Origin: Sebaldella termitidis ATCC 33386
GTDB taxonomy: Bacteria > Fusobacteriota > Fusobacteriia > Fusobacteriales > Leptotrichiaceae
Assembly (NCBI RefSeq): GCF_000024405.1
Contig: NC_013517.1
Span: 2,821,989 to 2,885,988, forward strand
DNA: 64,000 bases
Direction: 5' to 3'
Shown here: positions 17,273 through 19,969 of the stretch, in pieces
Numbering within the stretch: position 1 is the stretch's first letter
How the letters are laid out: each line of letters starts with the position of its first letter
Translations under genes and position numbers: made by a program
Notes under the pieces: generated by a model
Told to the model about the DNA's origin: nothing
Seen by the model: the letters and a program-made list of their open reading frames with translations, nothing else
The model's database searches: none

Positions 17273-17848
17273 TTATTGCTGACTTTCTCCTGTAAAAAAT
17301 CTTTTTAATATATTGTAAACATTATTTATCTTTACAGATTTTAAGATTATTTCATTAACATGAAACAATATATATGAAACAGTGAGACCTAAAGCTATTC
17401 CCGCCAAGACATCGCTTAAGTAATGAACCTCGAGATAAAATCTTGACACTGCTATAATAAGTGCAATAACTCCTATCACATATTTATACCTCAGGTTATA
17501 AAAATAATATACTCCGAAAACTGCAAATGCTACTGCACTATGTGCTGAAGGAAATGAAGATGTCCCGGAAGTTTTTACTTTAGGTATGAAATTCATGTAT
17601 TCATACGGTCTTACCCTGTGAAATTCCTCTTTCAGATAATTAGTGAGAATGAAAACCGTTATAACTGTTATTAACAGTACTACTCCTTTATTTCTTGTTT
17701 TCTTTCCTGACAGTAATACTATCATTAAGATTATCCATATAATACCGTTATCTCCCAATGAAGTAAAAAATACCATTATCTTGTCCAGCAATGGATTTTG
17801 AATTAATTTTACAGCATTTACTGCTGTTTGATCCATAATATTTAACAT
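17273..17848 (-). CDS. PAP2-family membrane phosphatase
   Basis: The 191-residue protein has the three phosphatase motifs of the PAP2 family in order: KEEFHRVRP (KX6RP) near residue 70, PSAHS near 100, and SRFYLEVHYLSDV (SRX5HX3D) near 135. Several hydrophobic segments surround them, so it is an integral membrane enzyme with its active site on the outer face. Family members dephosphorylate undecaprenyl pyrophosphate, phosphatidylglycerophosphate or phosphatidic acid; the substrate cannot be told here. AGGAG lies 7 bases before the ATG. It has a paralogue at 19201-19755, aligned over nearly the full length, on the other side of the CRISPR locus. Confidence 0.9.
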   Translation of the reverse strand: MLNIMDQTAVNAVKLIQNPLLDKIMVFFTSLGDNGIIWIILMIVLLSGKKTRNKGVVLLITVITVFILTNYLKEEFHRVRPYEYMNFIPKVKTSGTSSFPSAHSAVAFAVFGVYYFYNLRYKYVIGVIALIIAVSRFYLEVHYLSDVLAGIALGLTVSYILFHVNEIILKSVKINNVYNILKRFFTGESQQ

Positions 17849-18159: not shown

Positions 18160-18322
18160 TTTTTTGCTCTAAGATAGTTATATTAATAGAAAACTCAATC
18201 AAAATAGGGTGTCAAAAGTACACTCATTTACATTCTAAGATAGTTATATTAATAGCTGTTAAATCCATGTTATAATATATTATCTTTTTGAAATTTACAT
18301 TCTAAGATAGTTATATTAATAG
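18160..18322 (-). CRISPR. Minimal CRISPR array: two full repeats, one degenerate end repeat, two spacers
   Basis: The 30-base repeat, read on the minus strand, is CTATTAATATAACTATCTTA followed by GAATGTAAAT. It occurs intact at 18293-18322 and 18226-18255. A third copy (18160-18189) keeps the first 22 bases and is degenerate at its 3' end, as is usual for the trailer-end repeat. Spacers are 37 bases (18256-18292) and 36 bases (18190-18225). Repeat length, the ATGTAAAT end and spacer size resemble the type I-B repeats of clostridia and fusobacteria. No cas gene lies in the window, so the array is isolated or depends on a distant locus. Spacer targets are unknown. Confidence 0.85.
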
Positions 18323-19200: not shown

Positions 19201-19755
19201 TTAATTGAATAATTTCCTTATTATTTTATTTGAATTTATTCTGTCTGAATTTTTTTTATAGTAACTGCATACCATGTATGCAACACCCATACCCAGAATT
19301 ATTCCTCCTATAATATCCGTAAAATAGTGCACTCCCAGATATATTCTTGAAAAAGCTATAAAAAATGCTATAAAAAATACCGGCCATTTATACCTTAAGT
19401 TTAAAAAATAAAATACTCCAAATGCTGTAAATGAAGAAGCTGTATGCCCGGACGGAAATGAATAAGAGCCCGGCGGCGGTATTAGAAGTTTCAGATCATT
19501 TAATACTATAAAAGGTCTGTTTCTTTTTATAATATTTTTTAATATCCCTTCTCCGAGAATCGCTGTAATTAGTAAAGCCAGAAGCAGAATTATTCCATAG
19601 TTGCGGGTTTTCCTCCTCATAACGAGAACTAATGCCAAAACTATCCAGACTATTCCCAAATTTCCAATACCGGAAAAAAATATCATAACTTCATTAAGTA
19701 CAGGTATCTGTAACCTTTGAAGTCCTTCTGTTATTGCTATATCTATGCCAAAAAT
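19201..19755 (-). CDS. PAP2-family membrane phosphatase with an apparent ATT start
   Basis: It has the PAP2 motifs: KNIIKRNRP, PSGHTAS and SRIYLGVHYFTDI, with hydrophobic segments between. The first in-frame ATG (19686) would give a protein lacking about 23 N-terminal residues of the family. The frame is open upstream and reads FGIDIAITEGLQRLQIPVLN, which aligns with the start of the paralogue at 17848 (MDQTAVNAVKLIQNPLLDKI). The only ribosome binding site is GGAGG at 19764-19768, 8 bases before an ATT codon at 19753-19755, with a stop codon just beyond. I therefore place the start at this ATT, giving 184 residues. A sequencing error or use of the internal ATG remains possible. Substrate unknown. 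Confidence 0.8.
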   Translation of the reverse strand: MFGIDIAITEGLQRLQIPVLNEVMIFFSGIGNLGIVWIVLALVLVMRRKTRNYGIILLLALLITAILGEGILKNIIKRNRPFIVLNDLKLLIPPPGSYSFPSGHTASSFTAFGVFYFLNLRYKWPVFFIAFFIAFSRIYLGVHYFTDIIGGIILGMGVAYMVCSYYKKNSDRINSNKIIRKLFN

Positions 19756-19969
19756 TTTCTAAACCTCCTTTACATCAATTTTCATACTGATTTATTTTTA
19801 GTTACAAAACAGAAGAAAGGATTGTAACAGTATAGTAAGCATTGAAAATAAATCCATTTATTGAAATGAATGCCGTCATTTGTCTAATAACAAATAAAGC
19901 ATTACAGTAGAATTATACAAAATTTTTACATTCTTTTATACTGAAAGTTTCCTGAAATCTTTATATATC

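Follow-up and report, generated by a model that had tools for sequence, protein, structure and literature searches.

The PAP2 gene and its start region

The window, that is, the whole 64,000-nt stretch analysed here, lies on contig C1 (4,418,842 bp) of the Sebaldella termitidis genome, which comprises three contigs and 4.49 Mb. Its minus strand carries two PAP2 genes, and the features at the 5' end of the second are the subject of this analysis.

17273-17848, minus strand: PAP2 paralogue beginning at ATG, used as the comparison gene
19201-19755, minus strand: coding sequence of a PAP2-superfamily phosphatase, 184 aa counted from the ATT (Pfam PF01569, E 2.2e-26)
19684-19686, minus strand: ATG, the earliest canonical codon in frame and probably the start used in the annotation (161-aa ORF); no Shine-Dalgarno sequence precedes it
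19753-19755, minus strand: ATT, proposed as the start codon and separated from GGAGG by 8 nt; GTG in the orthologue L048 of a second Sebaldella species, ATT in G001, a third species
19759-19761, minus strand: in-frame TAG between the Shine-Dalgarno sequence and the ATT; TTG in G001
19763-19771, minus strand: Shine-Dalgarno sequence AAAGGAGGT, complementary through 9 nt to the 3' end of the 16S rRNA (ACCTCCTTT), conserved in G001
19759-19785, minus strand: in-frame mini-ORF of 8 codons from ATG to TAG (MKIDVKEV), ending just before the ATT, without a Shine-Dalgarno sequence and absent from G001
19773-19893, minus strand: leader segment of 121 nt, single-copy in the genome and absent from G001

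The protein encoded at 19201-19755 belongs to the PAP2 superfamily: it matches the PF01569 profile and its translation retains intact the three PAP2 catalytic motifs, as KNIIKRNRP, PSGH and SRIYLGVHYFTD. The best NCBIfam match, the SepP undecaprenyl-diphosphatase (NF047884), scores 101.8 bits, which is below the NCBI cut-off of 250, so the protein is not assigned to SepP.

The 5' end of the gene reads AAAGGAGG-TT-TAG-AAA-ATT-TTT-GGC-ATA-GAT on the minus strand, with GGAGG at 19768-19764 inside AAAGGAGG (19771-19764) and AAA at 19758-19756 between the TAG and the ATT. This is the only GGAGG or AGGAG on the minus strand between 19990 and 19650. As the 16S 3' end GGATCACCTCCTTTCT is found in the genome, at 4 places, AAAGGAGGT is able to pair over 9 nt. 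The 23 codons from the ATT onward include no ATG, GTG or TTG, and the next canonical codon is the ATG at 19686. The first-pass annotation had given the coordinates, the lone GGAGG, its spacing to the ATT, the nearby stop and the missing canonical codon, and all of these were borne out, on the minus strand. Taken by itself, AAAGGAGG is not rare, with 5 occurrences in the window against 4.4 expected. The chance of finding it in the right place is about 2e-4 (4.44/128,000 positions x 6 usable spacings), an estimate which takes the start position as set by the orthologues, independently of the motif.

A second assembly carries the same bases

Sequencing error at the ATT, which the first-pass annotation had wished to see checked, is ruled out by a second assembly. 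The independently assembled MAG contig G003:C31 (locus L047) is 98.65% identical to the window over 3.8 kb, and 600 of 600 bp agree across the gene and its leader, the ATT included. The surrounding 3771-bp alignment spanning the gene has 50 mismatches, so the contig represents a close strain that was sequenced independently. The PAP2 ORF is intact in both strains. Entry into the gene by a frameshift is likewise ruled out, since neither of the other frames is open at the junction.

This chromosomal region occurs twice in the G003 bin, on C31 at 98.65% identity and on C18 (L048) at 71-73% identity in the flanks, and the bin is evidently mixed. Since it also contains C18, C31 looks like an S. termitidis-like contig in the bin of another species.

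Spacing of start codons behind GGAGG in the genome

We surveyed GGAGG motifs in 2.464 of the 4.487 Mb, which held 2188 mechanically defined ORFs of at least 100 aa. Near ORF 5' ends, 621 of 651 motifs are followed by a canonical codon at a distance of 2-12 nt. The codons 4-9 nt after GGAGG include 601 ATG, 31 GTG and 42 TTG, compared with a background of 4, 4 and 3 at 2 nt. The 8 nt between GGAGG and the ATT of the PAP2 gene are a normal spacing in this profile. Three of the 651 motifs lack a canonical codon upstream, at 2-12 nt and in the next 15 codons: those of the PAP2 gene, of a TauE/SafE gene and of the gene at L154. The last has an ATG at spacing 0 that looks used and forms an exception to the spacing profile. 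The strictest filters of the survey also drop infC, which has a canonical codon in or after its Shine-Dalgarno sequence.

At eight sites no canonical start occurs within 18 nt after GGAGG, and there 8 of the 15 codons at spacing 4-9 are ATT, ATA, ATC or CTG (12.2% expected; 6 of 32 at control spacings). This comparison was designed once the data had been seen, and it counts two sites twice. Across the whole survey ATT shows no excess 4-9 nt after GGAGG, so any set of genes with such starts is small.

Homologues and orthologues at the start position

The homologue table comprises 30 loci, that is, 28 homologues, the gene itself and its twin; the weak hits L004 and L024-L033, the duplicates L034 and L035 (of L005 and L007), and the remaining copies and other genes were left out. 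Distances were measured from the conserved residue that corresponds to the internal Met of the PAP2 gene, hereafter the anchor. Every one of the 28 aligned homologues begins at a canonical codon, 20-33 residues ahead of the anchor, and the N-terminus that they set falls where the PAP2 gene has no canonical in-frame start. In the paralogue the ATG lies 24 residues before the shared anchor, compared with 23 for the ATT, in agreement with the first-pass observation that the paralogue aligns with residues encoded upstream of the first ATG.

These distances bear on the simplest alternative, translation from the internal ATG at 19686, yielding 161 aa. That reading has in its favour that the open frame offers no earlier canonical codon and that the PAP2 domain is encoded downstream of this ATG. 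The ATG is nevertheless not conserved as a start: orthologues beginning there would have spoken against the ATT, and none of the 28 homologues examined needs it, while 6 of the 28 have Leu at that position. With the start 20-33 residues earlier in every homologue, no Shine-Dalgarno sequence before this ATG, and a strong conserved one that would be left with no gene, we regard translation from the internal ATG as very unlikely.

The syntenic orthologue L048 (G003:C18), from the second Sebaldella species, has the same neighbours and reads AAGGAG-6 nt-GTG. In an ungapped protein alignment its GTG coincides exactly with the ATT, at a distance of 23 residues from the anchor. Upstream of this GTG by 14 codons, L048 has an ATG preceded by a poor Shine-Dalgarno sequence, and another ATT immediately precedes the GTG; the match is therefore strong, not beyond doubt.

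The third species, G001, whose protein is 80% identical, retains AAAGGAGGTTT and an ATT at 8 nt. Among the relatives the AUU is present in the close strain and in G001, and L048 has GTG at that position. Where the window reads GGAGG-TT-TAG-AAA-ATT, however, G001 reads GGAGG-TT-TTG-GAA-ATT, and because this in-frame TTG lies two codons upstream, the ATT in G001 is not forced. The difference is what start-codon loss would leave behind: an ancestral TTG turned into TAG by a single T-to-A change, with the gene now on weak ATT initiation or heading to silence. A TTG only 2 nt from GGAGG is, on the other hand, unlikely as a start, since canonical codons at this distance sit at background (3 TTG and 4 ATG, compared with 42 and 601 at 4-9 nt). 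L048, moreover, starts at the position of the ATT and not of the TTG, and the ORF has stayed intact in two strains. Start-codon loss appears unlikely on this evidence, and we take the ATT to be the probable start in both the window species and G001, with that loss as the main rival.

Codon changes relative to G001 were counted in both parts of the gene. The disputed 23 codons include 13 identical, 4 synonymous and 6 non-synonymous codons, with 7, 2 and 7 changes at the first, second and third codon positions; the corresponding figures for the rest of the gene are 82, 49 and 30 codons, and 30, 9 and 59 changes. The disputed stretch is small, has no excess of third-position changes and does not itself prove that it is coding.

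The leader

The mini-ORF offers another canonical codon, the in-frame ATG at 19785. Translation could begin there and either read through the TAG or stop and restart at the ATT, and the mini-ORF does share the frame of the gene, its last base lying 3 nt from the ATT. It has no Shine-Dalgarno sequence, however, most of it falls within the 121-nt leader that G001 lacks, and read-through needs suppression, which nothing here indicates. A start at this ATG is extremely improbable.

The leader insert is not a mobile repeat, as it occurs once in the genome. A structured leader or riboswitch was rejected, because an Rfam search of the window gave no match and the leader RNA folds no better than shuffled sequences (z -0.32 and -0.04). 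A promoter scan returned 7 sites, compared with 5.7 expected.

Between the two PAP2 genes, at 18160-18322 of the window, lies a CRISPR-like array of 30-nt repeats (ATTTACATTCTAAGATAGTTATATTAATAG) with unique spacers of about 36 nt. The window has 3 copies of the repeat, one of them degenerate, whereas the close MAG contig (L047 918-2927) has 30, all of them exact. Two further exact copies are found at G000:C1:1628664-1628759.

Further candidate non-canonical starts

The infC gene (L060, region of G000:C1:1265045) reads GGAGG-8 nt-ATA in all four genomes of the genus, so that a non-canonical start of matching layout is already present in this organism. Eleven codons after the ATA two of the genomes have an ATG; in its place G001 has ATA and G003 has ATC.

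Two other genes came to our attention. An EamA transporter gene (L162 16401-17339, minus strand; G000:C1:776401-777339) reads AAAAAGGAGG-8 nt-ATA-AAA-AAG, its first canonical in-frame codon being an ATG 9 codons past the ATA, and is a candidate for an ATA start. The TauE/SafE gene (L186 11544-12359, minus strand; G000:C1:1331544-1332359) has GAGGAGG followed by in-frame ATT, ATC and ATT, with no canonical start near the N-terminus, and is a candidate for an AUC or AUU start.

A probable weak start at the ATT

We consider it likely that the PAP2 gene is translated from the ATT at 19755-19753. The GTG of L048, the 28 of 28 homologues, the ATT of G001 and the layout of infC agree, and for this reason the ATT is probably a real, weak start. 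The perfect 9-nt Shine-Dalgarno sequence 8 nt upstream would position and hold the 30S subunit on the ATT, the initiator fMet-tRNA would pair with AUU despite the third-position mismatch, and IF3 would limit the yield at the AUU; the output would be the 184-aa PAP2 phosphatase at a reduced level. From the sequence comparisons we infer all three elements of this scheme: initiation at the ATT, low yield and compensation by the strong Shine-Dalgarno sequence. Low output may possibly be a selected trait, and the gene might conceivably be regulated by the level of IF3. That infC and the PAP2, EamA and TauE genes are kept on AUU, AUA or AUC behind strong Shine-Dalgarno sequences and respond together to the IF3 level is an improbable proposal; if true, such a start-codon regulon would extend to cell-envelope lipid recycling.

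Gene callers normally permit only ATG, GTG and TTG, and the PAP2 protein is therefore probably annotated 23 residues too short. A rare ATT start of this kind is unusual, belongs to an already known class of weak starts and would be missed by gene-calling software.

Comparison with known systems

The first-pass annotation had likened the gene to infC, the gene for IF3, which in E. coli starts at AUU. In S. aureus the infC start is AUA (PMC13009471). The layout of the analogy holds, with a strong Shine-Dalgarno sequence before a non-canonical AUN start, as in the GGAGG-8 nt-ATA of Sebaldella infC itself. The autoregulatory part probably does not carry over: IF3 itself turns away starts of this type, which makes infC self-regulating, whereas the PAP2 gene encodes a lipid phosphatase. 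As its product is not a translation factor, infC-like autoregulation is unlikely, and we do not class the gene among IF3-autoregulated starts.

Literature on AUU/ATT or non-canonical starts, on Deinococcus deserti and on Sebaldella termitidis start codons yielded, by titles and the beginnings of abstracts, no paper on this gene, and PMC11497404 makes no mention of AUU. The rarity of such starts can be gauged from a reconstruction of start-codon switches in 36 prokaryote groups, which inferred switches to AUU at 1 in 61,358 ancestral AUG and 1 in 5,080 ancestral GUG codons (PMC5622118, Belinky et al. 2017). Switches to AUU are therefore rare but known, and the GTG of L048 set against the ATT of the window would be one of that kind, here in a Sebaldella gene.

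A close published precedent is found in staphylococci. In S. aureus, as described in PMC13009471, cvfC1, ccpN and citZ have AUU or AUA starts that in poor medium reach about 10% of the output of an AUG reporter; the starts of cvfC1, ccpN and infC are accompanied by extended Shine-Dalgarno sequences. The PAP2 gene resembles cvfC1 (AUU) and ccpN (AUA) in having its AUU beside an extended, perfect Shine-Dalgarno sequence; the staphylococcal starts are kept in related species, and the AUU of the PAP2 gene recurs in the close strain and, behind a TTG, in G001. It differs in that the evidence for the staphylococcal starts comes from ribosome profiling and reporters, whereas the PAP2 start is proposed from sequence, and in that other genes of another phylum are concerned. 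A survey that combines Shine-Dalgarno sequences with orthologues can turn up more such starts in one genome, and the PAP2 gene adds a candidate AUU start other than infC in Sebaldella, outside the few groups in which such starts have been mapped.
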